Below, in pieces: positions 589 to 14,107 of a stretch of DNA of 23,975 nucleotides. The translations under genes were made by a program, and so were the position numbers. Numbering within the stretch: the first letter of the stretch is position 1; each line of letters starts with the position of its first letter. The stretch is from a virus, in IMG/VR virus record IMGVR_UViG_3300032285_000314, positions 1 to 23,975 of that record. The stretch is one strand, 5' to 3'. The notes beneath the pieces are model-generated. The model was not told the origin of the DNA. It made no database searches and was given only the letters and a program-made list of their open reading frames with translations.

Positions 589-2595
589 ATGGCACGATAT
601 AATTCAGTCAACACAACAAGTTCAGTAGCAGGAGGCAGTGTAATTACTAGCCCAGCTAGCGGCCTGTTGACAACATTAACTGGTAGCGGAACAGTAACGG
701 TGCCGAATCCTGTATTTTATACAGGTCAAACTCAAAGTTTTTATAACTCAACAGGCGCGGCAATTACATTAAACACTACATCTGGAGCATTTACTGGCCC
801 AGGATTTGGTGGAGGATCCACTTTAAGTTTACCAGCAGGATCTATTATTACCTTAGTAAGCGATGGTACTAATTATATCGGCCAATCTTGGTTAGGCGGC
901 ACCGTTGTAGCAAGTGGCACATTTACTGCCACCGGCGCTGTCAGTATGAGCCCAACTGGCCTCAACGTAAGTATTCAACCAACAGGAGCAGGTGTTTTAA
1001 CATTAAGCAGTGGCACCAAAGGCAGTTTGGATAACGTTGACATTGGAACAACGACCGCAGGCAATGCTAAATTTGGTACACTAGAATCTAGCGGTATTAC
1101 CAAAGTAACAGCTACTACTGTGTCAACTACCTATCAAGACGGCGCATTGATTGTATCGGGCGGTGTAGGTATTGCTAAAAAATTATTTGTTAACGACAGT
1201 ATCAAAGCTGGTAGTGCGAGCGCAACCAACGGTAGTATTATCATTCAAGCTAATTATAGCGACGGATCATTAACTACATTTGGTAGTGAGTATAGTTCAG
1301 GTGGTCCAAGTTTAGGATATGCTGTTTATCCAAGTTCGAGTGCCAGCGGCGCATTTTTAAGTGCCAGCGGAGCTACCAATTTACAACGTGGCGCATATAA
1401 CATAAACGGAAGCACACACAACTGGTATGCCGGAGCATCTTCTACAGTAGCTATTGGTAGTAGTGTAAGTATGTATAATGCTATGAGCTTGAGTACTACA
1501 GCATTAACTGTCTCTAATGCCGCAAACGTTGTTATACAAAATCCAACAAGTAGTCCTGTGAACAGTCAAAGTCCTCCAGGATATTTACAATTTACCGGTT
1601 ATGGTTGGAATACTTTAGTAGGATCTACATCATATCAAGGACAAATTGCGCTAGGCGGAACTTATAGTGGTGCCTCAGGCAGTACAGAACCTGCGTTTAC
1701 ATTTAGTTTGGCCGGCACTGGCAACGGTGGTTATAATACTGCTAACGGTCCTAGCTCATTAACTGAAAGGATGCGAATTACTAATTATGGATTCGTCGGC
1801 ATTGGAAATACAACCCCTTCAAATACCTTAGATGTTACAACTACAAGCCCAGCTGTTAATACAGCAACCGCAAACAACTTGGCGGGCATAGGCGGCGGCA
1901 TTACTATAACTGCAAATCAAAGCGGTACTAATAGTCGCGTTGGTATTGTTATGCGAGGTAGTGATAACATTGGTGGTGGCATAGCAGTAGCTCGTCAAGA
2001 TGCTGGTACTACTTGGGGCACATACATGGCCTTTTACACTAACAATCAGACTAGTGGGTCATATGGTGTTTCAGCAGTACAAGAAAAATTAAGAATCACT
2101 AGTGACGGGTTGCTTTCATTGAGCGGAACTTATGGAACTGCCGGCATAGCTTTTCCTACACAAACTGACGGTAGTTTACAAAGCACTTACCCAACGTTTA
2201 TGGGTTATAATTGGAAATTTCTTGGAGCATTTACACTAAGAAACGGCAGTCAGTATTTAGATATACAAACAAACTTTACTGGAGGTATGGTATCAGTTAA
2301 AGCTGAAGGGTACTTGTATAACCAGTTACTGTGTGTTAGTTATAGTTGCGGTTATACTTACACTAGTAATCAATTTTTAGCCAGACAAGACCTTAATTTA
2401 TCAAGTAATACTACTATGAGTTTATATAGAAGTAGTGCTAGCCCGTACTATATGGGTATAAGATTTAATAGAGGTACTACTGGCTATACAGAAGGACAAA
2501 TTAACGTTTATATTAATGCTTGGGACGGCGGAAGTCAAAACGCAATAAGCGTATTACAGTTTGCCCAGAACAATACAGCGAGCCAATACTATTAA
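589..2595 (+). CDS. Long tail-fibre protein 1 (MARYN family)
   Basis: This is probably a trimeric tail-fibre shaft protein of 668 residues. Residues 1-105 form the MARYN N-terminal domain shared with the fibres at 2889, 5396 and 8379 (SGLLTTLTGSGTVTVPNP, then SDGTNY near residue 98), presumably the attachment end. Next come motifs common in phage fibres: a DNVDIGTTTAG type element near residue 148, GALIVSGGVGIAKKL near residue 185, and ERMRITNYGFVGIG near residue 393. The last 120 residues or so (after GYNWKFLGAF) are a different beta-rich domain not shared with the other three fibres and are a candidate tip. There is no S74 chaperone and no DLHLSN C-terminus. The start is set by conservation of MARYN. 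A small chaperone-like gene follows after 2 nt. The receptor cannot be predicted. Confidence 0.85.
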   Translation: MARYNSVNTTSSVAGGSVITSPASGLLTTLTGSGTVTVPNPVFYTGQTQSFYNSTGAAITLNTTSGAFTGPGFGGGSTLSLPAGSIITLVSDGTNYIGQSWLGGTVVASGTFTATGAVSMSPTGLNVSIQPTGAGVLTLSSGTKGSLDNVDIGTTTAGNAKFGTLESSGITKVTATTVSTTYQDGALIVSGGVGIAKKLFVNDSIKAGSASATNGSIIIQANYSDGSLTTFGSEYSSGGPSLGYAVYPSSSASGAFLSASGATNLQRGAYNINGSTHNWYAGASSTVAIGSSVSMYNAMSLSTTALTVSNAANVVIQNPTSSPVNSQSPPGYLQFTGYGWNTLVGSTSYQGQIALGGTYSGASGSTEPAFTFSLAGTGNGGYNTANGPSSLTERMRITNYGFVGIGNTTPSNTLDVTTTSPAVNTATANNLAGIGGGITITANQSGTNSRVGIVMRGSDNIGGGIAVARQDAGTTWGTYMAFYTNNQTSGSYGVSAVQEKLRITSDGLLSLSGTYGTAGIAFPTQTDGSLQSTYPTFMGYNWKFLGAFTLRNGSQYLDIQTNFTGGMVSVKAEGYLYNQLLCVSYSCGYTYTSNQFLARQDLNLSSNTTMSLYRSSASPYYMGIRFNRGTTGYTEGQINVYINAWDGGSQNAISVLQFAQNNTASQYY

Positions 2596-2597
2596 TT

Positions 2598-2885
2598 ATG
2601 ACTAAATTTATCGAACATATTAAAGACGATGGTACTGTTGAGTACATAGCAGAGAATATCGAAGAACTCAAAGCTCTTGCGGCCGAAGCAGAATCTAAAC
2701 GGGTTAAAGTTGAATTAACTGAAGAACAAGTTGCAGAAACTATTCTGAATCAACAAAAACACGAGGCAAGAGAATACTTAAATACTACAGACTGGTATGT
2801 TCATAGAATGTCAGAAACAGGAAAAGCTATACCAGATGATGTTTTAGAAAAAAGACAAACAGCAAGAGAAACCCTTTCAAAATAA
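2598..2885 (+). CDS. Small tail-fibre assembly chaperone-like protein
   Basis: A 95-residue acidic, mainly helical protein. Its second half carries the pattern EAREYLNTTDWYVHRMSETG followed by IPDDVLEKRQTARE. The combination of DWYV, ETG, P.DV and a final R..AR resembles C-termini of small proteins encoded next to phage tail fibres and often annotated as tail-fibre assembly or chaperone proteins (family knowledge, not tested here). I start it at ATG 2598, two bases after the preceding fibre stop; an in-frame ATG at 2520 would overlap the fibre by 76 nt and add a Lys/Arg-rich stretch unlike the rest. It ends 3 nt before the next MARYN fibre. Likely role: folding or trimerisation of fibre 1, or attachment of a tip. 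Confidence 0.7.
   Translation: MTKFIEHIKDDGTVEYIAENIEELKALAAEAESKRVKVELTEEQVAETILNQQKHEAREYLNTTDWYVHRMSETGKAIPDDVLEKRQTARETLSK
2877..2884 (+). promoter_or_regulatory. Weak late promoter-like box (TCAAAATA)
   Basis: Only the AAATA part matches the T4 late consensus, but it lies exactly 4 nt before the ATG at 2889, as at the other three MARYN fibre genes. It overlaps the end of the preceding gene. There is no Shine-Dalgarno. Activity is uncertain. Confidence 0.3.
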
Positions 2886-2888
2886 ATT

Positions 2889-4241
2889 ATGGCACGATAT
2901 AACTCAGTCAGCGCAACAGGATTAATAACAGGCGGCAATAGTATTGCTACACCTAATAGCGGCCTACTGACTACTATCACCAGCGGCGGCACTATTACAG
3001 TACCAAACCCAACATTTTATGCTGGTGCTATACAAACATTTTATAATGCCAGTGGCGGTCCTGCTACATTAACTACACCTAGCGGCACTTTCACTGGAAT
3101 CTCTGCTAGCGGTAACGCAAACCAAGTAATTTCTAATACAGCAATTATTACTATTGTAAGCGATGGTACAAATTATATAGTACAAAGTTTCTTAGGCGGA
3201 TCAGTAACTGCTACTAGTTTAACAGTTACAGGTGCTGTGACAGCAAACCCAGCAAATGCCAGCATTAGTTTACAACCTACTGGAACCGGTATTGTAACTA
3301 TAGCTAGTAGTACAGGCAATCCGGGTAACATAGATAACATGAATATTGGTGCTAGTACAAAGGGTACTGGCGCATTTACAACATTGACATCCAATGGCGC
3401 TACTACGTTTACTGCTAGTGGTGCTATTACGTTAGGTACAGCAGCCAGCGGTGCTGTACAGGTAACCAATGGTGTGGGTATCGGCGGCGGCATTACTGTA
3501 GCCAATGACAGTTACTTTGGTGGAAAAGTAGGTATAGGCACAGTTGGTCCTGTAGGGCTTTTACATGCTTCTGGAGCATATCCGCAAGTTGTAATGAATA
3601 ACACATCAGCTGGCTCGGGATCCTTGATGTTATTTGGTGATGCTGGAACATTTAAACAGGCTATCGGGCACCTTACTTCAACTAATTACTTGCAATTTGG
3701 TTATGGTGGTACAGGTACTAACGGTACTTTCAACGGTACTACCGGTATGACTCTTACCAATACTGGTTTACTAGGTATAGGTGTAACTCCTACTTATGGC
3801 TTACATGTGGTAACTTCAACTGGAAACCCAGCGGCGTTCAACTCGTCAACTAGTGGCGGCGGCAATATTTTCTTGACTTGTAGCAATGCGGCAACTCCAG
3901 TTTCTGGATACATGGGACCAAATGCTTGGAATAATAACTGTTTTGGTATCGGTAGTTCAACTAACCATGCCTTACAATTTACAGTTAACGGCACACAAAG
4001 AGCACAAATCGATACAGGCGGACATTTCTTACCTATGTCAGATAATGCTTATGATATGGGTAACGGTAGTTATCGCTGGCGTAACGTTTATACAGGAGAC
4101 TTACATTTAAGTAATAGAGGTAGTGCTAACTCAGTTGATGGAACTAATGGAGATTGGACCATTCAAGAAGGTGAGACAGATTTGTTCATATTAAATAACA
4201 AAACTGGCAAAAGATTTAAATTTAAGTTAGAGGAAGTATAA
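2889..4241 (+). CDS. Long tail-fibre protein 2 (MARYN family, DLHLSN C-terminus)
   Basis: A 450-residue fibre shaft protein. Residues 1-105 are the shared MARYN domain. A GNIDNMNIGASTKGTGAFTT element follows near residue 150, GAVQVTNGVGIGGG near 195, and two VGIG/LGIG beta-helix type units later. The C-terminus reads YRWRNVYTGDLHLSN, then NSVDGTNGDWTIQEGE and an ILNNKTGKRFKF ending. The fibre at 5396 has nearly the same C-terminus, and I know this ending from other phage fibres, where it closes the shaft. So fibres 2 and 3 share both ends and differ in the middle. The stop codon overlaps the next ATG by one base (TAATG), indicating translational coupling with the adhesin-like gene at 4241. 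Confidence 0.87.
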   Translation: MARYNSVSATGLITGGNSIATPNSGLLTTITSGGTITVPNPTFYAGAIQTFYNASGGPATLTTPSGTFTGISASGNANQVISNTAIITIVSDGTNYIVQSFLGGSVTATSLTVTGAVTANPANASISLQPTGTGIVTIASSTGNPGNIDNMNIGASTKGTGAFTTLTSNGATTFTASGAITLGTAASGAVQVTNGVGIGGGITVANDSYFGGKVGIGTVGPVGLLHASGAYPQVVMNNTSAGSGSLMLFGDAGTFKQAIGHLTSTNYLQFGYGGTGTNGTFNGTTGMTLTNTGLLGIGVTPTYGLHVVTSTGNPAAFNSSTSGGGNIFLTCSNAATPVSGYMGPNAWNNNCFGIGSSTNHALQFTVNGTQRAQIDTGGHFLPMSDNAYDMGNGSYRWRNVYTGDLHLSNRGSANSVDGTNGDWTIQEGETDLFILNNKTGKRFKFKLEEV

Positions 4242-4936
4242 TGGCATTTTATTCAAGTTCAACACTATCAGGAATGAATTTTAAGGACGCGGCTCCTAAC
4301 ATGAGACAAAATTCTTTTATGAGATCTAGTTATAGTGGCGGAGCTCTTGCTGGTTATAGTGCTACTGGAAGCGCAACCATTGCCGCAGTTAGTCCTAATA
4401 CTAAAGGCTTTGAAGGACCGTATACACCATCTCAAGGATCCGCTACTGCTGCAAGTTTAGATGCCGCAACTGCGTCAACACCTTACTGGTATGGTGTGTT
4501 TAATATTGGACCGCGTATGGGCCGCGGTGGACTAGCTAACGGTTGGGGTGGCCTTGGCGACGGTAACATATTAAAAATTACTTCTCCGGCCAACAGTTCT
4601 CGACAGTATTATGACGGTTGTTTTATCAGTTTAACTGCTCCAGCAAAAAGAAGTCAACTAAGATTTAGAGGGTGGGTATGGATACAAAGCGGAACATACA
4701 ATACGTTTTGGCTTTCAATTATCGATGCCGGACAATCGATAACCATCTCTAACTACAATACATGGACATATATTGACCAACTAGTAAGTTCAAGCCAAGT
4801 TACCGATAGTGATTTTAGAATTAACTGGTTATACTCATCAGATACTCGTGCGGTTGAAATGTATTTTGCCATGATTAGTATTACATTACCAGAAATTGGC
4901 GGAGATGGCGCAGGTCACTCTGCTAGCACTTTATAA
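4241..4936 (+). CDS. Distal fibre/adhesin-like protein (MAFYSSS)
   Basis: A 231-residue protein starting MAFYSSSTLSG, similar at its very start to the gene at 9871 (MAFYSGSG) and loosely to that at 6936 (MPIYLGNS), which hold the same place after fibres 4 and 3. The first 110 residues are Ser, Ala, Gly and Thr rich; residues 110-220 are an aromatic beta-rich domain (YYDGCFISLTAP, RFRGWVWIQSG, YNTFWLSIID) that could be a jelly-roll or carbohydrate-binding fold. That reading is inference. It starts on the TAATG overlap with fibre 2, so the two are probably made in step. The short MAFYSSS segment may dock to the DLHLSN end of the fibre. No enzyme motif was seen. Confidence 0.65.
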   Translation: MAFYSSSTLSGMNFKDAAPNMRQNSFMRSSYSGGALAGYSATGSATIAAVSPNTKGFEGPYTPSQGSATAASLDAATASTPYWYGVFNIGPRMGRGGLANGWGGLGDGNILKITSPANSSRQYYDGCFISLTAPAKRSQLRFRGWVWIQSGTYNTFWLSIIDAGQSITISNYNTWTYIDQLVSSSQVTDSDFRINWLYSSDTRAVEMYFAMISITLPEIGGDGAGHSASTL

Positions 4937-4940
4937 GGAA
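4934..4940 (+). promoter_or_regulatory. Ribosome binding site built into a stop codon (TAAGGAA)
   Basis: The TAA stop of the gene at 4241 supplies the first bases of the AAGGAA Shine-Dalgarno for the ATG at 4946, 5 nt further on. The same TAAGGA arrangement recurs at 8031 and 21010. Confidence 0.65.
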
Positions 4941-4945
4941 TTGCC

Positions 4946-5383
4946 ATGAACGGATATTATAAAGACGAACGAGTTGTACAAGATTATACTAGCAAGAATC
5001 AAGCTGAAGCAATTGCCTTTGTTAAAAAACATTTGAAAGAACGCTTTGGCGAAGATCACCCAATCGACGACGCAGACATTACTGTTGAATTTACACACAA
5101 ATTTCATGCTAATAATTCAAGAGATCATGAGTTAAGTTCAGTTGTAGTTGAAGTAGCTGGCATGACATTTAATGCCACTATTGAAAGTCAACGTAATATG
5201 GCAGCGGCATTGGCCGCAAATCAAGAAACATACTTATGGGTAGATGCTGATAATGAAATACAAGAGATAACTAAGGAGCAATTACAAGAAATTCTAAGTT
5301 TATCTCACCAAGCAACAACAGAAATTTGGACAAGGTACAGAGATATTAAAAATAATCTAGCACCTTATCCGCAGGAAATTTAA
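4946..5383 (+). CDS. Fibre assembly chaperone-like protein (DUF4376-like)
   Basis: A 145-residue acidic, soluble protein. The stretch from VEVAGMTFNATIESQRNMAA to LWVDADNEIQEITKEQL, followed by a helix ending in RYRDIKNN, resembles DUF4376, a domain often found in small genes next to phage tail fibres. That family carries a V.V.G..F..D/T..S...I..A pattern, then W...DN....T..EL. I infer the match from memory of the pattern. The N-terminal 60 residues (YYKDERVVQDYTS onward) are of unknown fold. It has a good ribosome binding site overlapping the previous stop, and ends 12 nt before fibre 3. Likely role: chaperone for fibre 2 or its distal protein. Confidence 0.7.
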   Translation: MNGYYKDERVVQDYTSKNQAEAIAFVKKHLKERFGEDHPIDDADITVEFTHKFHANNSRDHELSSVVVEVAGMTFNATIESQRNMAAALAANQETYLWVDADNEIQEITKEQLQEILSLSHQATTEIWTRYRDIKNNLAPYPQEI

Positions 5384-5391
5384 TTTAAATA
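5384..5391 (+). promoter_or_regulatory. T4-type late promoter-like box (TTTAAATA)
   Basis: The box matches TATAAATA at 7 of 8 positions and lies 4 nt before the ATG at 5396, immediately after the preceding stop. No Shine-Dalgarno lies between it and the ATG, the same arrangement as at 577 and 8367. Confidence 0.5.
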
Positions 5392-5395
5392 CACT

Positions 5396-6934
5396 ATGGC
5401 ACGTTATAATACAGTACTTACAACAGGATCAATAGCAGGTGGTAATTCAATTACTACTCCTAGTAGCGGCTTATTGACCACTTTAACTGGTAGTGGTACT
5501 GTAACAATTCCTAATCCAGTATATTATCTTGGATCAACACAAACTTATTATAATTCAACTGCCAGCGCAATTACATTAAGTGTACCAGGCGGCAGTGTCA
5601 TAACTGGTCCAGGATTGGGCGGTGGTAGCGCAACGTTGAGTCTGCCGCCTGGTAGTATTATTACACTAGTAAGTGATGGAACAAATTATCTAACACAAGA
5701 TTGGGTAGGCGGAAATGTAAGTGCTACAACTTTAAGTGCCAGCGGAGCAGTTAATTTAAGTCCGGCAAGCAGTACTATAACTATCAATCCAGGTACAGCT
5801 AGTAACATGGATAACATGATTATTGGTGCTACAACTGCTAAAGCTGGAACATTCACAACGTTAACAGCAACTACCAGTGCTGTTATTGGACCAAGCGGTA
5901 CTACACCACTTAAAAAATTAGATGTTCGCGGAGCAATAGCACTTGGCGGTAGCACTGATGGAATTTGGTTAGGTAACGTAGGAGATAATAGTGCGTATGA
6001 TAACGTAACTTTAAATTATACCGGATATAATAGTGGATCTCCATATGTTGTATTACAACCTAGAACAACTCCAGGTAGCGGTATATTAACTACATTTTTA
6101 CAATTAAAAAATTCTAACGGAAATTCGGCTACAGCTAATAATTTAACAGGTTTAATTGTTGATAGTACTATTGTTGCTGGAGCTAACGCTACAACTAGTA
6201 CAGGATATGGATCTTCAATATACGCATACAAAGATGTAAGCAATATAAGTAATGGTGGCCAAGAAGGAGCCGCCGCAGGTATATTTGGTAAGGCCAATGC
6301 TACTGGTGAAACTAGTGTGTTTATTGGTGCCGATCAAGGAACAACTAGATATGGATATATTGGTGCTGTAAATAGAAGTTCGGCATATACTGGGTTGGTA
6401 CTACAACCAGCAGGCGGAAACGTAGGAATTGGACCAGTACTATCTCCAACAGCATTATTGAATGTTGGTTCAGGAGCAACAGATGGCGCCACTATTCATT
6501 TAACAGAATTTAATACCACCGGCGGCAGAAACGGAAGTATTGTCTGGCGGGCATATTATAGTGGAACAACTACTTTACATGATTCTGCGGCTATTGTTCG
6601 AATGAATACAGACGATAGTAACGGAGCATCTTTTCAAAGTGCGTTGGCATTTATGGTCCGTCCGTCCGGAGCAGGACAGTCGTTGTCTGAAAAAATGCGA
6701 ATTAGTTCGGATGGAAGTGTAGTACCAGGCGCCGATAACGCACAAAACTTAGGTAGTACTAGTTTACGTTGGGCAAATCTTTACACAGGTGACTTGCATT
6801 TAAGTAATGAAGGAAGTAGTAATTCAATCGATGGTACAAGTGGTAACTGGACTATCCAAGAAGGTAAAGAAAACCTGTTTATTATAAACAACAAAACTGG
6901 TAAAAAATACGAGTTTATGTTAAGGGAAATATAA
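5396..6934 (+). CDS. Long tail-fibre protein 3 (MARYN family, DLHLSN C-terminus)
   Basis: A 512-residue fibre shaft protein. It has the shared MARYN domain (residues 1-108), then a NMDNMIIGATTAKAGTFTTL element near residue 140, a mid-region of beta-rich Gly/Thr/Asn sequence, GGNVGIGPV near residue 340, and EKMRISSDG followed by LGSTSLRWANLYTGDLHLSN close to the C-terminus. The ending NNKTGKKYEF matches that of fibre 2. In other phage fibres the MRI..DG.V.G..NAQ.LG unit marks the end of a trimeric shaft. The next gene, a glycine-rich adhesin candidate, starts one base after the stop, so this fibre and that protein probably act as a pair. The start is fixed by conservation of MARYN. Confidence 0.87.
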   Translation: MARYNTVLTTGSIAGGNSITTPSSGLLTTLTGSGTVTIPNPVYYLGSTQTYYNSTASAITLSVPGGSVITGPGLGGGSATLSLPPGSIITLVSDGTNYLTQDWVGGNVSATTLSASGAVNLSPASSTITINPGTASNMDNMIIGATTAKAGTFTTLTATTSAVIGPSGTTPLKKLDVRGAIALGGSTDGIWLGNVGDNSAYDNVTLNYTGYNSGSPYVVLQPRTTPGSGILTTFLQLKNSNGNSATANNLTGLIVDSTIVAGANATTSTGYGSSIYAYKDVSNISNGGQEGAAAGIFGKANATGETSVFIGADQGTTRYGYIGAVNRSSAYTGLVLQPAGGNVGIGPVLSPTALLNVGSGATDGATIHLTEFNTTGGRNGSIVWRAYYSGTTTLHDSAAIVRMNTDDSNGASFQSALAFMVRPSGAGQSLSEKMRISSDGSVVPGADNAQNLGSTSLRWANLYTGDLHLSNEGSSNSIDGTSGNWTIQEGKENLFIINNKTGKKYEFMLREI

Positions 6935-6935
6935 A

Positions 6936-8033
6936 ATGCCAATTTATCTAGGTAATTCAACATCGCAACTGAGAGTGGCATATGAAGGCTCAACATATAC
7001 CACCGGTGACAACTATACAGGAACTACTCTAGCACCTTATTTTACATTTAGTGCCCATACATTTACGGCTGCTGGTGTTATTGGAAGAACTGGGCCAAGT
7101 TTAGCCGCTCTACAATCAGCATATTCTGCGCAAACATGGGCTAGCAATACTAGCTATTTCAATATAGTTGGTAGCGGAATACAAAAATGGTTAGTTCCTA
7201 AATCAGGAACTTATAAAATACAGTGTGCCGGAGCTCCGGGAAGCAGAGGGTCTGACGCTATCACTAACGGTATGGGATATAGTCAAGGTGTTCCAGGTAA
7301 TGGAATTATTGTTAGTGCTAACTTTTATTTGTATGCTGGTGATATTTTATATATTTTAGTAGGGCAACAAGGAATCGAAGTTCCAACAGCGGCCAACAGT
7401 AGTGATACAGACGGCGGCGCAGGCGGTGGAACTTATGTTGCCAAGAAAGTAGCCAATAGTAGGTATTATTTTACACCAGATAGCTGTAACGTTGTTCCGT
7501 TAGTAGTTGCTGGCGGCGGTGCTGGCGGGTCAAGTGATGGAAATGGACAATCGGGTATATATGCTAATTGGCAAGGTGGCTCAGCTTGGAACCCTATTGG
7601 ATCTGGTTTAAACGGAGCATCTATGGGAGGTGGATTTAGTCCGGCACACAGGCCTTCGGATGCTAACTTGCCTGGTTACTCTATTGATGTTGGATTTGCT
7701 ACTGGAGCAACGGCTGGCCCTAACGGGCAAGGCAGATCAACTGGTCAATCATTCCTAGAAGGCGGCATTGGTGGGTATGGCCGAAGCTATACTGGGTCTT
7801 ATATTACTGGCGGCAACGGCGGATTTGGCGGAGGCGGCGGCAGTACAGACGAATATGGTGCAGGCGGCGGCGGATGGGTCGGAGGTTTAAACGGCGATAA
7901 CGTTGCTGTATATAGCAGTCAAGGCGGCACCAGTTATATTAGTCCAGAAGGAACTAGCGCAAGCAACGACGGATATAATACGTGGGCGGCTCAGACTACC
8001 AACGGTTATTGTACCATAACATTTATTGCTTAA
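6936..8033 (+). CDS. Glycine-rich distal adhesin-like protein
   Basis: A 365-residue protein with an N-terminal segment of about 75 residues (MPIYLGNS), then W.VP.SGTYKIQCAGAPG near residue 87, DILYILVGQQG near 130, VVAGGGAGGSSDG near 190 and long Gly runs near 292-315. This order (W.VP..GTY, GA.G, GD.L..LVGQ.G, PLVVAGGG.G) is that of the glycine-rich domain known from ALK-type receptors and from many bacterial and phage surface proteins. T2/S16-type gp38 adhesins also bind receptors through Gly-rich loops packed as polyglycine helices, so a tip adhesin is plausible by analogy. It starts one base after fibre 3 and is followed by a chaperone-like gene. No enzyme motif was seen. Confidence 0.75.
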   Translation: MPIYLGNSTSQLRVAYEGSTYTTGDNYTGTTLAPYFTFSAHTFTAAGVIGRTGPSLAALQSAYSAQTWASNTSYFNIVGSGIQKWLVPKSGTYKIQCAGAPGSRGSDAITNGMGYSQGVPGNGIIVSANFYLYAGDILYILVGQQGIEVPTAANSSDTDGGAGGGTYVAKKVANSRYYFTPDSCNVVPLVVAGGGAGGSSDGNGQSGIYANWQGGSAWNPIGSGLNGASMGGGFSPAHRPSDANLPGYSIDVGFATGATAGPNGQGRSTGQSFLEGGIGGYGRSYTGSYITGGNGGFGGGGGSTDEYGAGGGGWVGGLNGDNVAVYSSQGGTSYISPEGTSASNDGYNTWAAQTTNGYCTITFIA

Positions 8034-8036
8034 GGA
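8031..8036 (+). promoter_or_regulatory. Ribosome binding site built into a stop codon (TAAGGA)
   Basis: The stop of the glycine-rich gene provides the AAGGA Shine-Dalgarno for ATG 8043, 6 nt further on. Confidence 0.65.
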
Positions 8037-8042
8037 AATATT

Positions 8043-8366
8043 ATGGGCGTTTATAGACAAGCATTACAGCAACTTAGACCTAATAGTAGAATTACGTTTA
8101 CTTCTATGGAAGAAAACTATGAAACACTACATTGGAAAGATAAAACGATTGAAGCACCTACAAAAGAAGAAGTAGAGGCACTAGTGGCGGAATTAAAACC
8201 TGCCTGGGATAAATGGGCCGAAGATAGACCTGCCGCATATCCCACAGTTGAAGATCAACTAGACATGTTATGGCACATGGTTAATCGTGGCGAACAAATA
8301 GTAAAAGGATCTGTTTGGCATGAAGCTGTTCGCCGAGCTAAAGCAAATACACCAAAACCAGAATAA
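8043..8366 (+). CDS. Small fibre assembly chaperone-like protein
   Basis: A 107-residue charged protein. The first 50 residues contain short beta segments and THEAPTKEEVEALVAEL-type acidic helix sequence (actual reading KTIEAPTKEEVEALVAEL). The second half, RPAAYPTVEDQLDMLWHMV with a downstream W.EA....K...PKP, is a pattern I know from small proteins coded beside marine phage fibres, of unproven function. It sits between the glycine-rich protein and fibre 4, in the same relative place as the small genes at 2598 and 4946, although the three are not obviously alike in sequence. Likely role: folding or assembly of fibre 3 and its adhesin. Strong ribosome binding site. Confidence 0.68.
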   Translation: MGVYRQALQQLRPNSRITFTSMEENYETLHWKDKTIEAPTKEEVEALVAELKPAWDKWAEDRPAAYPTVEDQLDMLWHMVNRGEQIVKGSVWHEAVRRAKANTPKPE

Positions 8367-8374
8367 GTTAAATA
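8367..8374 (+). promoter_or_regulatory. T4-type late promoter-like box (GTTAAATA)
   Basis: The box matches TATAAATA at 6 of 8 positions and lies 4 nt before the ATG at 8379, just after the previous stop. No Shine-Dalgarno is present. Confidence 0.5.
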
Positions 8375-8378
8375 TAAG

Positions 8379-9869
8379 ATGGCACGATATAATTCCGTAA
8401 ACTCAACAGGTTCAGTAGCAGGTGGCGCAAGTATAAGCACACCAGCTAGTGGTCTGTTGACTACATTAACCGGTAGTGGTACCGTAACAGTGCCAAATCC
8501 AGTGTATTATACTGGACAAACTCAAACATATTATAATAGTACAGGTAGCGCAATTACATTAAGTACACCAAGTGGTAATTTTGTCGCTCCAGGATTTACC
8601 AGTGCTAGCTCAATTTCTCTGGCAAGTTCCGCAATCATAACTTTAATAAGTGATGGCACAAACTATCTAACACAAGATTGGCTAGGCGGAATTGGTGTAT
8701 TCACAGCATTGACTAGCACAGGCGGTATTAGTGCCACAGGTGGTTTAGTTACCTTAACCAGCAGTACTCCTGGAACTATGGACAACGTAGTTATTGGCGG
8801 CAGTACAGCAAAAGCTGGCACATTCAACGGCTTAACTAACACACTTGGTACAACATCATTAGCTGGTGGCAGTGCCAGCGGCGTGTTTAGTTTCACAGCA
8901 AACCAAGCTAGTACAGCATACAATAATGGATCAATTGTTGTTACCGGTGGTGTTGGTATTAGTGGTGACACGTACCATAATGGTATATTAGTAGTTGGAA
9001 CTTATGGTACACCTACAACTGGCGCAGGATGGCGTACTAACACTACTGACATTTACGGACAAACAGCCGCAACTGATAAAGTAAGAATTTCTATCACAAG
9101 CGATAGTTGGTTTAATTCGGGCGGAGCAGTCGGCGTTGGAACATCAGCTCCTACAACCAATTCGTACGGTACAACAACGTCCTCTTATAGATTAAATATA
9201 TTTTATGCGCCTCCTACGAACAGTACAGTTGATGACATAGTTAGAATAACTAGCAAATATAATGCAGGATCCGGAGCATCGGCGGCCGTAGGAAGTGGCC
9301 CGGCTATTGTGTTTGCTGGCGGTATTGGCGATAACCAGACTAGAGATAGGGCTAGAATTGTTGCAGTTTATGAAGGCGGTAACACATCTGGACTAGCATT
9401 TCATACCCAAACTAATGCGGACACAATCTCGGAGGCTGTTAGAATTCAAAATAACGGCAACGTGGGTATCGGTACAACTGCCCCTAACAGTTATAAACTA
9501 CAAGTAGTTGGAACTATTGGTTCTACCGGTAACATTTACTCTAGCACATCTGACGTAAGATTAAAAGACATTGTTGGACCAATCGTCAATGCTATTGATA
9601 TTGTAAAAGCTATTGAAACTTTTTACTATCGTAACAACGAACTAGCATTAAGTTTAGGATTACAAGGCACAGATCTACAAGTTGGTATTTCAGCGCAAAG
9701 TGCATTGAAAGTCGCTCCAGAAGTAACAGCACCTGCCCCATTAGATCCAAACTACCTAACAGTTATGTACGAGCGTATTGTGCCATTCCTAATTGAAGCA
9801 ATAAAAGATCAGCAAAAAGACATCGACGTGCTGAAAGAAAAGATAAATTATTTAGAAGGTAAACAATAA
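8379..9869 (+). CDS. Long tail-fibre protein 4 with self-cleaving S74 chaperone
   Basis: A 496-residue fibre with the shared MARYN domain (1-105), a TMDNVVIGGSTAKAGTFNGL element near residue 130, a GSIVVTGGVGISGD element near 185, and GNVGIGTTAP near residue 363. The C-terminus is an intramolecular chaperone of the endosialidase type (Peptidase_S74). The signature SDVRLK begins at S391 and provides the Ser-x4-Lys dyad (S391, K396) known to drive self-cleavage; the helical tail carries YERIVPFLIEAIKDQQKDI. By analogy with endosialidases, cleavage before S391 would release a chaperone of about 106 residues after trimerisation. It is the only fibre of the four with this domain, and the last of the array. 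A propeller-like gene follows after one base. Confidence 0.9.
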   Translation: MARYNSVNSTGSVAGGASISTPASGLLTTLTGSGTVTVPNPVYYTGQTQTYYNSTGSAITLSTPSGNFVAPGFTSASSISLASSAIITLISDGTNYLTQDWLGGIGVFTALTSTGGISATGGLVTLTSSTPGTMDNVVIGGSTAKAGTFNGLTNTLGTTSLAGGSASGVFSFTANQASTAYNNGSIVVTGGVGISGDTYHNGILVVGTYGTPTTGAGWRTNTTDIYGQTAATDKVRISITSDSWFNSGGAVGVGTSAPTTNSYGTTTSSYRLNIFYAPPTNSTVDDIVRITSKYNAGSGASAAVGSGPAIVFAGGIGDNQTRDRARIVAVYEGGNTSGLAFHTQTNADTISEAVRIQNNGNVGIGTTAPNSYKLQVVGTIGSTGNIYSSTSDVRLKDIVGPIVNAIDIVKAIETFYYRNNELALSLGLQGTDLQVGISAQSALKVAPEVTAPAPLDPNYLTVMYERIVPFLIEAIKDQQKDIDVLKEKINYLEGKQ

Positions 9870-9870
9870 C

Positions 9871-10941
9871 ATGGCATTTTATTCAGGATCAGGACCAACT
9901 CTTGTAGCTAGTGAAACTGGGCACATGTTTCCACAGTTCAGCACAGCACCTGCTAGCCCAATTTCAGGACAAGTTTACTTTGATACTAACCTTAAAAAGT
10001 TGTATATGTGGGACGGTTATATCTGGGGAGAAGTATTTGAACCAGGAAGAGCTTACCTATACAGGTCTATTATTAACACTGGTTACGTTATGGCTGGGTA
10101 TCAAAACTCTAGTCCGTGGAAAAACGTTAACAGAATGCAACACGCAACAGATATTTGTTCAAATTTAAACGATTTGTTGCCTACAGCTGGTGCTTATGTA
10201 GGAGGTGCTTGTAGTAAGACTATTGGGTACGTGTTCGGAGCAGATAGTGCGTGGCCTGGAACCAACACCGCGGTATCTAGTTTTACCATGACTACCGAAA
10301 CTGCTGGTACTGCTGGTACATATACCATGTTAAAATCCAGAAATTGTTGTGCCACTATTTTTAAAGAAACAGAATACGCATGGATTATAGGCGGCGGAGA
10401 TACTGCCGTTGATGTTTTAAATTTAACAACCAATACTATGTTGGCTAACCAAAGTATCACAAGTATGGCTGGCGACGGTTATCAGTCAGGTGTGTCCTGT
10501 TTAAGTGATGAAACTAAAGGATTTGTATGGGGAGATGCTAACCACAAATTTACATTTAGTACCAGCGCGGCGGTAAGTATTAATACATCAGGTGCTGTTA
10601 CCGGTAGTGGCAGTCAGCAAAAAGGTATTAATAGTAAACTACATAAAGGTTGGAATGGTAACGAAGGCAGTTATAACGGTGGTTATAATTTAAAACGTTG
10701 GGACTTAACTACAGAAACTAGTTTAGGAACAGTAGTTAAGCCTGTTGGAAATAGTGGCGAAGAAAACTTTGACATGGGACAAGATCACCAGTATATGATG
10801 GGATGTTATGACGGCGCACAAAACAACAGAGGTTGGAAATTTAGTTACACAACAGAAACAGGATATGAACTTGGAACAGGAAGTATTAGAACAGGAGTTG
10901 CTGGCGGCAGCTCAGGAGCTTGCGCTTGGAAGGGAGCTTAA
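9871..10941 (+). CDS. Distal fibre protein with propeller-like repeats
   Basis: A 356-residue protein starting MAFYSGSG, akin at its N-terminus to the protein at 4241. Residues 28-55 (SPISGQVYFDTNLKKLYMWDG and W) match the short 'P..G..YFDT..KKLY.WDG..W' element widespread in phage fibre proteins. The rest shows repeating blade-like units, with GYVFGADSAW, AWIIGGGDTAVDVLNLTTNT, KGFVWGDANHKFTFSTS and YNLKRWDLTTETSLGT each pairing a small hydrophobic strand with a polar strand, as in kelch/RCC1-style beta-propellers. Blade number cannot be set by eye. It is probably the receptor-binding tip of fibre 4. A Shine-Dalgarno (AAGGT) lies inside the end of fibre 4. Confidence 0.7.
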   Translation: MAFYSGSGPTLVASETGHMFPQFSTAPASPISGQVYFDTNLKKLYMWDGYIWGEVFEPGRAYLYRSIINTGYVMAGYQNSSPWKNVNRMQHATDICSNLNDLLPTAGAYVGGACSKTIGYVFGADSAWPGTNTAVSSFTMTTETAGTAGTYTMLKSRNCCATIFKETEYAWIIGGGDTAVDVLNLTTNTMLANQSITSMAGDGYQSGVSCLSDETKGFVWGDANHKFTFSTSAAVSINTSGAVTGSGSQQKGINSKLHKGWNGNEGSYNGGYNLKRWDLTTETSLGTVVKPVGNSGEENFDMGQDHQYMMGCYDGAQNNRGWKFSYTTETGYELGTGSIRTGVAGGSSGACAWKGA

Positions 10942-11727: not shown

Positions 11728-12452
11728 TGTATCTTCTTTTTAAAGCAGTTACCCTACAAGTTCAAGGAAATATACAGACTATCGGTCGCGTATTGACCTA
11801 TACCATTGGATTTGTGCCAGATACACATGTTGACATATTAAATTATGCTCATTTAGATCCGACAGTATTAGATGATGATGTGGCAAAGGCATGGCTGTTT
11901 TTTGGTGCTGCCAAAAATAAAATAAGTGTACGTTCCGCTACACTACAGAATCAACAGTTAGATGTAATTGCTTCTGGAGAAGCAACAGGCGAAAAAGTAA
12001 AATACGAATTATCAGAAGCTGATCAACAAAATGCCGTAAAGTTTAATCAAATTTTAATGAGAAAAATTTTGGACGAAGTGTATGATAAACGATTCATCCA
12101 AGTTAATGCCACAGTTAGTATACTAGAACAAACTACATGGGCAACTCAACAAGCAGAAGCCACTGCTTATCTAGCCGATAACACAGCATCGGTTCCATTA
12201 ATCACTAGCTTGGCTGAAGCTAGGGGTGTCACTGTAGCCGAAATGGCTAACAAAATCATAAATGCTATCGCAGATTATAACAGTAAACTAAGTACTTTAC
12301 TGGCTAAGAAGCAACTAGTCGAAAAAGAAATCAAGGCTTGCCAATCTATAGAAGATTGCAAGCGTTTATTACACAATCGATTTGAAATTTCTATGCCAGT
12401 ACCGCAGATGGACGAGGAAGGGCTAACTACTCCTTCTAAGTTTGATCTCTAA
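11727..12452 (+). CDS. Fibre-chaperone-like protein of unknown function
   Basis: A 241-residue protein. The N-terminal half is beta-rich (MYLLFKAVTLQVQGN, then GRVLTYTIGFVPDTHVDILN) and contains a KAWLFFGAAKNKISVRSA segment. The C-terminal half contains TTWATQQAEATAYLADNTAS, PLITSLAEARGVTVAEMANKI and a helix ending KKQLVEKEIKACQSIEDC. That last pattern (W..Q..EA.A.L.D..A..P.I..LA..RG.........I) resembles the C-terminal helical part of several tail-fibre assembly chaperones; the match is from memory. It is translationally coupled to the coiled-coil gene. A general assembly factor for the fibres upstream is a reasonable guess. Confidence 0.6.
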   Translation: MYLLFKAVTLQVQGNIQTIGRVLTYTIGFVPDTHVDILNYAHLDPTVLDDDVAKAWLFFGAAKNKISVRSATLQNQQLDVIASGEATGEKVKYELSEADQQNAVKFNQILMRKILDEVYDKRFIQVNATVSILEQTTWATQQAEATAYLADNTASVPLITSLAEARGVTVAEMANKIINAIADYNSKLSTLLAKKQLVEKEIKACQSIEDCKRLLHNRFEISMPVPQMDEEGLTTPSKFDL

Positions 12453-12469
12453 GTACAAGAGTTTATTTT

Positions 12470-14107
12470 ATGTTTTCAATCCCTATCAACCCTAAGTTGA
12501 GTGAAAGTCAGTTCCGACAGTTTTTGACATTTTGTAACTCATACAAAGAGCATATCTACGACTTGTATTTTACCTGTCGCATGCCTCCCTTTACTCAAGA
12601 CGCCATGGGAGATGTTATTGTTAGTGATCCAAGCGACCCTATTAATGTAGCATTATGGGTTCAAGCTAATCTAGGCATTCGTGTAAGTGCTACATTTAAC
12701 AACACATTAGTTCGTCCAACACAAGAAAATTTAGATTTATTCATAAAAAACTTCAAGCAATTATATGATGCTGGTGTTAGATCTGTTACACTACCTCACA
12801 CTCATTGGTTAGCAACTGGTCAAATACAAAACGAATTTCCAGAATTGTTTATTAAAAATACCATTCTTCGTAATGTTACTAAACCTAACGAAGTTGCCAA
12901 ACTAGCAGAAGCTGGGTTTCATTACATTAATCTTGATCGTGATTTAATGCGAGATCACGATACACTAAAACAAATGCGCCGTGCGGCAGACAAATATAAT
13001 GTTAAATTAAGTTTACTAGCTAATGAAGGATGTGCCGGCGGCTGTATCATGATGGATGAACACTACGAGTTTAACAATTCAAGAGAAGGTACGAGTCCAC
13101 AATACTTCAATGATGTAATCAGTCGTGTTAGTTGTCCCAAATGGGAAGTAGAAGATCCAAGTATACCTTTAAAGACTGCTAATTTTCCTCCTTGGAGAGA
13201 AGACTGGGCAGAACTATTACAGTATGTAGACGTAATTAAGCTACATGGACGCGAATCGATTACGAGAATGTTTGAAACTATGGACATTGTTAAGCGTTAC
13301 GCAAATAATAAAGAAATATTATTTGATACTTTTAATGCTTATCTTAAAGAAACTAACTTAGAAGAAAAGCCAATCAACGCATGGCGTAAGATTATTAAGA
13401 CTTGTAAGTTTGAATGTTGGGATTGTAATTTTTGCGATCGCGTATACGAAGCAAAATCTAACGAAAAGAGTCATCCATTAATTACTGCGGTTACACATGA
13501 GCTAGTCGAATCAGTAAATTACAACAAAAATTATTCAGTAATGGGACTAACCAGCCCGCGTGTACAGAAATTGCTTTATAAACTCAGTACACATTGTAAA
13601 AATTATCTTGAAGTAGGATCTGCTCTTGGAGCAACAGCCAGTGCTGTGGCTGAAAATACTAATATTACAGTAAATTGTGTAGACAACTGGGCAACTAATG
13701 TACAACCAGCATCTGAAGAATTTATGTTGCCAGATAATACAAAAGAATTATTCTTAAAAAATATGCCCAGAACTGTTAATGTATGGGATATGGATATGTT
13801 TGAAGTAGATTTAACTAAAATATCCGGTGTTGATTTGTTCTTTTACGATGGACCTCACGAAGAAGACTTGACAACTCGGGCAGTTAAGTATTATAGTAAA
13901 GCATTTGCGGATACATGTATTATGATTTTCGACGATGCCAACTGGGCTGGAATAGTTTCAGGAGCAGACACGGGAATTGAGCAAGCAGGACTCCGTATTC
14001 TTTACAGTAAAAAAATGTTAAATGAACAAGAAGATTTATCCAAATGGTGGAATGGTTTATACATAGTAGTGGTACAGAAAAATGAGACATCAAATATTAT
14101 CAGCTGA
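12470..14107 (+). CDS. Cys-rich TIM-barrel-like (U32-like) domain fused to SAM methyltransferase
   Basis: A 545-residue two-domain protein. Residues 1-330 alternate strands and helices like a TIM barrel (SATFNNTLVRPTQENLDLFI, GVRSVTLPHTHWL, GFHYINLDRDL, KLSLLANEGCAGGC, VDVIKLHGRES), the layout of U32 peptidase-like/UbiU-type proteins, which hold a [4Fe-4S] cluster. Cysteines lie at C188, C192, C222 and then C312, C316, C319 and C322. Residues 365-540 look like a class I methyltransferase of the Methyltransf_24 type: LEVGSALGATAS as motif I near 380, CVDNW, LFFYDGPHEED near 458 and IMIFDDANW near 486. The substrate is unknown. It starts a run of overlapping genes with two oxygenase-like proteins. 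The assignments rest on pattern recognition; the methyltransferase half is the surer. Confidence 0.75.
   Translation: MFSIPINPKLSESQFRQFLTFCNSYKEHIYDLYFTCRMPPFTQDAMGDVIVSDPSDPINVALWVQANLGIRVSATFNNTLVRPTQENLDLFIKNFKQLYDAGVRSVTLPHTHWLATGQIQNEFPELFIKNTILRNVTKPNEVAKLAEAGFHYINLDRDLMRDHDTLKQMRRAADKYNVKLSLLANEGCAGGCIMMDEHYEFNNSREGTSPQYFNDVISRVSCPKWEVEDPSIPLKTANFPPWREDWAELLQYVDVIKLHGRESITRMFETMDIVKRYANNKEILFDTFNAYLKETNLEEKPINAWRKIIKTCKFECWDCNFCDRVYEAKSNEKSHPLITAVTHELVESVNYNKNYSVMGLTSPRVQKLLYKLSTHCKNYLEVGSALGATASAVAENTNITVNCVDNWATNVQPASEEFMLPDNTKELFLKNMPRTVNVWDMDMFEVDLTKISGVDLFFYDGPHEEDLTTRAVKYYSKAFADTCIMIFDDANWAGIVSGADTGIEQAGLRILYSKKMLNEQEDLSKWWNGLYIVVVQKNETSNIIS

Follow-up and report, generated by a model that had tools for sequence, protein, structure and literature searches.

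A likely array of exchangeable tail-fibre cassettes in a phage genome fragment and its relatives

Results

A 23,975-nucleotide (nt) record of a virus of bacteria, IMGVR_UViG_3300032285_000314 (here called the window, meaning the whole stretch, which is probably a fragment), carries four complete fibre genes on the + strand at 589-9869, each beginning with MARYN. We think it likely that these genes form an array of fibre cassettes, in which a common N-terminal domain (the N-domain) would anchor each fibre, a conserved C-terminal end (the C-end), present in fibres 2 and 3, would hold a separately encoded tip, and parts are exchanged between related phages. As judged from aligned genomes of close relatives, stalks and tips have been exchanged between the fibres of related phages. 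The C-end is terminal in the fibres that carry it and is usually tied to the gene that follows. Related contigs and loci are designated below by L numbers; two of them, L006 and L008, hold arrays of six MARYN fibres each.

Fibre 2 (450 amino acids, aa; 2889..4241, +) and fibre 3 (512 aa; 5396..6934, +) are complete open reading frames (ORFs), and the sequence-only reading from which we started had placed them correctly as two fibres with common ends and unlike middles. Scored against 300 shuffles at the protein level, they are alike over residues 1-105 (z 30.7), over a linker at residues 105-170 (z 11.2) and over the last 81 residues (z 43.7), whereas the middles (170-369 of fibre 2 and 170-431 of fibre 3) stand at the shuffled level (z 1.0). 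Identity is 53% in the N-domain and 57% over the 81 aa of the C-end, where BLASTP aligns the two at 50% over 103 columns (E 6e-33). Each fibre also has its own distal protein, as had been claimed, at 4241-4936 and 6936-8033, and these are unrelated to each other (z -0.6). The MARYN start that had been taken to join the pair is indeed common to both but is found in all four window fibres, and the middles do differ, though only beyond about residue 170, to which the common 5' part extends. Since the MARYN start and the first ~170 residues are shared by all four, only the 81-residue C-end marks out fibres 2 and 3.

Where conserved residues have fourfold-degenerate sites, the two fibres are alike in 18 of 32 cases at the N-terminal end and in 5 of 14 at the C-terminal end, against a chance level of 0.345. 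The C-end thus bears no sign of recent exchange between the two fibres and the N-end little, and recent gene conversion between them, which we had considered, is unsupported. The comparison indicates two fibres that would be old paralogues.

The C-end and the gene behind it

The C-end occupies 3996..4238 (+) in fibre 2 and 6689..6931 (+) in fibre 3, 81 aa in each case, and is a putative tip dock; the distal proteins behind it start at -1 and +1 nt from the fibre ends. It is present in many cyanophage and environmental fibres. A profile built from 29 diverse C-ends has one clear match in the PDB, residues 989-1078 of the P-SCSP1u fibre protein (8i4m, E 1.8e-33), and a tblastn search found the C-end at 46 places in 45 phage records, with similarity confined to the C-end among the matches listed. 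A fold search gave no clear match (best Z 4.5 among the matches listed).

Our scan for C-ends kept the best 80 of 379 relatives, and its counts describe that part. Of 81 distinct genes, 78 have 0-4 residues between the domain and the C-terminus, and the other three have 12. Behind 68 of the 81 lies an ORF of at least 90 aa on the same strand, within -12 to +15 nt, and 33 of these 68 overlap the fibre gene by 1 nt; the same 1-nt overlap stands in all eight named phage records (8/8) that were read around the fibre. In 66 of 68 cases the third residue of the protein encoded next is I, F, L or V. In an earlier, smaller set, a short start pattern, chosen post hoc from a list of such genes, occurs in 49/60 genes behind a C-end and in 46/216 behind genes that lack one.

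The domain could instead be a cap that closes the fibre trimer, or a substitute for a chaperone, and not a dock, in which case the next gene would encode a chaperone or an independent protein; we regard this as unlikely. Although the C-end is terminal and occupies the place of the S74-like ends of sister fibres, and although five of the C-end genes listed are followed by a gene of 70 aa, the genes behind it are of many kinds and many are larger and tip-like (glycine-rich, resembling a carbohydrate-binding module (CBM), or with an S74-like end by eye), and in the window cassettes the tip gene is itself followed by a further, small gene. The first half of the C-end weakly matches T5 L-shaped fibres (E 0.07-0.16), which would suit a cap, yet C-ends nearly identical in DNA precede unrelated tips. 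Where the last 240 nt of two fibres are at least 80% identical, the following proteins are unrelated in 37 of 85 pairs (the pairs draw on 19 loci and are not independent). In L047/L043, for example, the C-ends are 97% identical and the first 17 tip residues are common, with the remainder of the tips unrelated.

Some loci depart from the simple order of fibre and tip. The gene behind the C-end fibre encodes only 48-60 residues in the cyanophage records L243 (6285-6467), L245 (6225-6407) and L248 (6225-6371) and is followed by a larger gene; perhaps it is a tiny adaptor between fibre and tip. Three successive genes behind one C-end fibre of L199 (2358-5876) match window gene 9871-10941 (E 8.8e-14, 4e-9 and 1.4e-23) and start with MAIY, MAYY and MAFY, as might result from tandem amplification of a tip gene. 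A separate tip behind a C-end fibre of L008 (9008-9631) has an S74-like end by eye, and tip and fibre may each be trimers.

Tip A, the distal protein behind fibre 2 (231 aa; 4241..4936, +), has a short N-terminal segment before a predicted CBM-like sandwich. Its model has a mean confidence (predicted local distance difference test, pLDDT) of 59 and a predicted template modelling score (pTM) of 0.65, with residues 1-27 below pLDDT 50, and with a model this weak the description as CBM-like is tentative. Tip A is not glycine-rich. It is 69% identical to its L010 orthologue, and its domain from residue 19-24 onward also occurs in seven loci (L217-L223) on different N-termini. Tip B, behind fibre 3 (365 aa; 6936..8033, +), is glycine-rich and resembles the glycine-rich region of the ALK receptor in sequence (E 2.6e-6); polyglycine-II layers of the gp38 type would be no more than a possibility for it. 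Relatives of tip B in L227-L239 align from residue 36 onward and start with MGYYTKNGG or MGFYTKNGG.

The N-domain

The N-domain spans aa 1-105 of fibre 2 (2889..3203, +) and 5396..5716 (+) of fibre 3. The fibre 2 model is confident only here (mean pLDDT 87-96 per ten residues over residues 11-100), with the last 30 residues fairly confident and the middle of low confidence. Residues 8-104 of the model adopt a fold like that of the XD1 region of CBA120 TSP4 (Z 9.2), T4 gp9 (Z 8.1) and gp10 (Z 6.9), and also like that of a Klebsiella phage baseplate protein (9f4a, Z 8.7); XD2 and XD3 are not among the matches listed, the middle of the model being of low confidence. A search of PDB sequences with the N-domain gave no meaningful match (best E 0.13, antibodies), and a tblastn search with fibre 4 residues 1-158 against the phage collection gave none at E 1e-3. 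From its position and modelled fold, the N-domain probably anchors the fibre to the baseplate or to another fibre, because several of its fold matches are baseplate or baseplate-bound proteins.

Exchange between close relatives

Junctions are seen in two pairs of closely related contigs, L006/L008 and L202/L206(L064), of which L206 and L064 are parts of one contig. Taken together, 8 of 10 orthologous fibres are interrupted, seven in their C-terminal part and one centrally. L006 and L008 are 96.9% and 98.4% identical in the flanks of the internal fibre region, where two of six fibre pairs are intact (605/584 and 12991/12949) and the other four are broken, with identity dropping abruptly at about nt 1307, 531, 1006 and 465 of the four fibres. 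In L202/L206(L064) all four comparable pairs are broken (4/4), and the C-terminal part differs in 402/3670, 2983/6057 (compared by protein alignment, as was window fibre 5396 with L010) and 8403/7419. In most close pairs one to four steps of 75 nt are enough for identity to drop from ~80-100% to what unlike sequences show. Pair 402/3670 is identical (100%) for 975 nt and then declines over the next ~300 nt to the end of the alignment at nt 1307, and 8403/7419 remain alignable, at 55%, as far as about residue 465.

Beyond the break, six of the seven pairs have C-terminal parts that do not match each other as proteins at E 1e-3; in the seventh, 3106/3085, the changed part has diverged but is still homologous (42% over 139 columns). 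The following genes likewise differ in six of seven. They are without a match behind 5160/5146, 7766/7458, 10001/10001, 2983/6057 and 8403/7419, and behind 402/3670 a gene is present in L206 and none in L202, while 3106/3085 have retained the small gene that follows them (97.5% over 80 aa). In four blocks homology resumes 18, 1, 17 and 0 nt before the ATG of the next fibre; the 3106/3085 block differs in that it resumes within the small gene behind the fibre. One of the L006/L008 pairs consists of a fibre with a C-end and a tip and a partner with neither. A scan with the L202/L206 tip found matches only in those two contigs.

The central interruption is of another kind. In L202/L206 5508/8978, the 5' 668 nt (79.5%) and the 3' part are kept around a middle of ~600 nt without a match, and the tip (83.6% at the aa level) and the next small gene (87.7%) are kept behind it. 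Some of the exchanged material resembles other positions of an array: past its junction, L202_402 agrees with L064_7419 at 83.8% over 333 nt, and the new middle of L206_8978 (206-403) matches L202_2983 at 49.5% over 204 columns.

Both modes recur in two pairs of named Synechococcus phage genomes. Identity between the S-CAM4 isolates 0309CC44 and 1010NB23 is 99.2% over the 5.6 kb that lead almost to the C-end, which is preceded by ~390 nt of stalk in 1010NB23 and ~40 in 0309CC44; the two C-ends agree at 88.3%, different genes stand behind them, and further downstream identity is back at 99.0%. A C-end at 88% beside 99% flanks, with differing tips, implies that the C-end can travel with the tip. 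Synechococcus phages ACG-2014e and ACG-2014i differ by a replaced segment of 282/351 nt between stretches that are 96.1% (before) and 97.6% (after) identical, and the right border of this segment falls at the first residues of the C-end. This is the swap of a fibre's middle that the sequence-only reading had imagined. Chimaeric fibres with breakpoints in the common ends, which it had pointed to as the place to look, do exist among relatives, but the unit that is mostly exchanged is a different one, from inside the stalk to the next fibre start.

An account that needs no exchange, in which the ends are common by descent under strong constraint and the middles diverge fast, seems to us improbable. 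The window itself would suit it, with fibres 2 and 3 as old paralogues and with fibre 2 alignable over its full length to its L010 relative at 55%, as would the changed head of 3106/3085, a diverged homologue. Such an account does not, however, predict the steep falls in identity, the missing protein match and the different following genes in six of seven C-terminal breaks, or the segments that match other array positions, and it is contradicted for L006/L008, L202/L206 and the S-CAM4 pair, barring junction artefacts. That these contigs are themselves artefacts of metagenome assembly, with repeated N-domain sequence misjoining strains, is very unlikely, for although L006, L202 and L206 are single metagenome contigs and contain repeats of 66-78% identity, L007, L008 and L009 come from three IMG records and L008 is 100% identical to the other two over 10.8 and 10.2 kb, junctions like these also occur in the named genomes (the S-CAM4 isolates, ACG-2014e/i), and several junctions lie in stalks rather than in the N-domain.

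The window and L010

The window fibres and their L010 orthologues have conserved tips and C-terminal parts. Homology restarts at an NVGIG-type motif of the stalk, at nt 3774 in fibre 2 (motif at aa 293-299, 3765..3785, +) and, in the protein comparison with L010 fibre 5083, at aa 341 in fibre 3 (motif at aa 341-347, 6416..6436, +), with the caveat that the motifs were chosen post hoc and that local alignments tend to end at conserved motifs. The N-domain of L010_7851 is nearest to window fibre 8379 (77%), and its C-terminal part and tip are nearest to fibre 2. These identities suggested that the tip A cassette had moved to another N-domain, a candidate event only, since the simple pairing stays compatible with the N-domain tree (approximately unbiased (AU) test, p 0.235). 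The simple pairing is not rejected for fibre 3 and L010_5083 either (AU p 0.125).

Discussion

The reading we favour is that each cassette would consist of the shared N-domain, a variable stalk, an ending and a small gene that perhaps encodes a chaperone. Three endings are seen: a C-end with a separately encoded tip, an S74-like chaperone end, and a fused head. The N-domain would most likely be the part by which a fibre is attached, either to the baseplate or to a neighbouring fibre, and the C-end, roughly 50-80 residues long, would most likely hold the product of the next gene, whose first residues appear to follow a short hydrophobic pattern. Fibres 2 and 3 would then be two C-end cassettes with different stalks and tips. 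Among related phages, the commonest exchange begins within the stalk, takes in the ending and usually the gene or genes behind it, and stops at about the next fibre start; sometimes only the middle is replaced, leaving both ends, the tip and the small gene in place. Repeated N-domain coding sequence and short stalk motifs probably supply homology or fold-compatible joints, with N-domain homology between successive cassettes serving as recombination arms. Alternatively, selection on fold-compatible joints alone may decide which random crossovers survive.

More tentatively, the C-end and the first tip residues could be a general snap-fit connector across cyano-podoviruses, cyano-myoviruses and environmental multi-fibre phages. 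Tips would then be interchangeable cartridges, with borders at the dock start, the tip start codon and the stalk motifs, and an array could shuffle cartridges between its own positions; we consider this possible but would not expect it.

Several observations weigh against the favoured reading. The window itself is without recent exchange, as its fourfold sites attest, and the relocation of the tip A cassette between window and L010 is unproven (AU p 0.235). Among 17 P-SCSP1 records (the query's own included), in which C-end, tip and next gene match at no less than 96.7%, there is no tip exchange, and the distal fibre of P-SCSP1u is not resolved in its structure, going by the available part of the report (PMC10575957). 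No ORF of at least 90 aa lies in the stretch scanned behind 13 of the 81 C-end genes; five of those listed have a 70-aa gene there instead. In one group with C-ends 82-90% identical, the N-termini of the tips diverge after the first few residues, and a long docking peptide is therefore not general. Pair 5160/5146 is a mosaic, with a 333-nt stretch at 80% between the first break and the unlike C-terminal part. As for the N-domain, its fold also stands far from the N-terminus in a tailspike (24qj, 611-701, Z 12.6) and in a capsid spike (9ny6, 196-294, Z 9.7), and recurs in bacterial proteases (6o38, Z 9.2; 4dny, Z 7.2; so named in the parts of the literature available), so that the fold alone is no proof of an anchor.

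The borders call for similar care. Several fall at short repeated stalk motifs, namely the NVGIG type, IGxTT..F..L (in fibre 2 at aa 153-166, 3345..3386, +; in fibre 3 at aa 143-156, 5822..5863, +) and QTAAQ.NIT, and several junctions lie inside stalks and not in the N-domain. Six of 10 events are within 3 residues of a motif against 1.69 expected, a result reached in 6 of 4000 randomisations, for motif expressions that were chosen after the breakpoints, with the IGxTT pattern loosened and one further pattern dropped; the count is inflated by the tendency of local alignments to stop at conserved motifs. In 34 fibre-like genes outside arrays, 38 raw events reduce to 6 distinct ones, with none at a motif and 0.29 expected, a check without power, which leaves the motif rule unsupported there. 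By this post hoc test, borders would often coincide with a short stalk motif or with the beginning of the C-end.

Exchange of this kind is already known, as receptor-binding module exchange, as tail-fibre domain shuffling and as the pairing of fibre and adhesin; what is different here is that an array built on one common N-domain is combined with a C-end that leads on to a separately encoded protein and with exchange of the middle alone. In the Ackermannviridae (CBA120, Kuttervirus), the available parts of three reports describe a receptor-binding gene cluster with conserved gp10-like N-termini and exchanged variable C-terminal modules, a conserved motif of the tsp genes proposed as a recombination site, and laboratory chimaeras (PMC8432352, PMC8825819, PMC11414711). 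Like these branched tailspikes, the window has several receptor-binding genes in a row and a predicted gp10-like N-terminal fold. Unlike them, every window fibre would start at residue 1 with one XD1-like domain, with XD2/XD3 or a separate anchor not seen among the matches listed; fibres 1-4 have no Pfam enzyme domain, and two of them are followed by a separate tip-like gene.

T-even phages have a long tail fibre with a separate adhesin (gp37-gp38). The window resembles the gp37-gp38 arrangement of T-even phages and S16 in having fibre genes directly followed by a separate tip-like gene, and in the glycine-rich nature of tip B. It differs in that no gp37 or gp38 family is among the PHROG matches listed for fibres 2 and 3 and their tips, the C-end is of a cyanophage type, tip A is not of the glycine-rich kind, and several such cassettes stand in one genome. 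A resemblance to the ALK glycine-rich region is reported for the Pam3 tail fibre gp24, with a comparison to S16 gp38, in the available part of that account (PMC9608196). P-SCSP1u gp28 and other cyanophage fibres share the C-terminal domain (8i4m) and, in their records, the 1-nt overlap with the next gene, but the window has an array and a different N-domain. Receptor-binding proteins of close relatives with a near-identical N-terminus and a non-homologous C-terminus are described, as far as the part available goes, in a general account of their domain shuffling (PMC10684548); the exchange of the middle alone, which leaves both ends and the tip in place, and the exchange from one array position to another go beyond it. 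Our literature search, with subscription literature mostly outside its coverage, found no paper on the pair of C-end and following gene.

If the favoured reading is true, it provides a sequence rule for finding unannotated receptor-binding tips in cyanophages and environmental phages, as the gene that overlaps or abuts the stop codon of a C-end fibre. Such a rule would be relevant to the question, still unanswered, of what viral genes determine host range in nature. The same reading would also supply natural examples of sites at which fibres have been cut and rejoined, including the less familiar exchange of the stalk only, which keeps dock, tip and small gene.

Other genes of the window and of related arrays

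The first ORF of the window (190 aa; 1-573) is truncated and gave no PHROG match at E 1e-3; it may encode the tip for a fibre whose gene lies further upstream, outside the window. Fibre 1 (668 aa; 589..2595, +) has the MARYN N-domain and a C-terminal part of its own, in which the C-end domain was not found, and is followed by a small gene similar to tail-fibre-assembly genes (2598..2885, +; phrog_4912, E 1.2e-9). The small genes in the chaperone position behind tips A and B are at 4946..5383 (+), with a DUF4376 domain (38.6 bits, above the Pfam cut-off of 25), and at 8043..8366 (+; phrog_9114, unknown function). Fibre 4 (496 aa; 8379..9869, +) has the common N-domain and an S74-like C-terminal end (20.8 bits, below the cut-off of 22), and the gene behind it (356 aa; 9871..10941, +) belongs to phrog_1417 (E 4e-52, unknown function). 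Pfam searches at E up to 1 gave no family in fibres 1-3, and hence no S74 match in fibres 2 and 3, and only the S74-like end in fibre 4, with no enzymatic (pectate-lyase-like) domain in fibres 1-4. The neighbours of the fibres include tail-sheath stabiliser and head-tail adaptor genes; the sheath-stabiliser protein is at best 37% identical to those of annotated phages, which among the matches listed have genomes of 284-490 kb.

Other kinds of gene recur in the related arrays. A cysteine pattern, CxxC ... CxxCxC ... C, is seen by eye in small proteins or protein ends encoded between fibres in L006 (9796-9999 and the end of 12257-12967), L202 (10772-10957) and L206 (8773-8967). Genes resembling 2-oxoglutarate/iron oxygenases by eye lie in or beside the fibre arrays of L008 (11933-12562), L199 (176-814) and L006 (14588-15127), one of them in a swapped block, and a swapped block between fibres of L006 also contains a small CPHC-motif protein (7172-7486) that looks glutaredoxin-like by eye.

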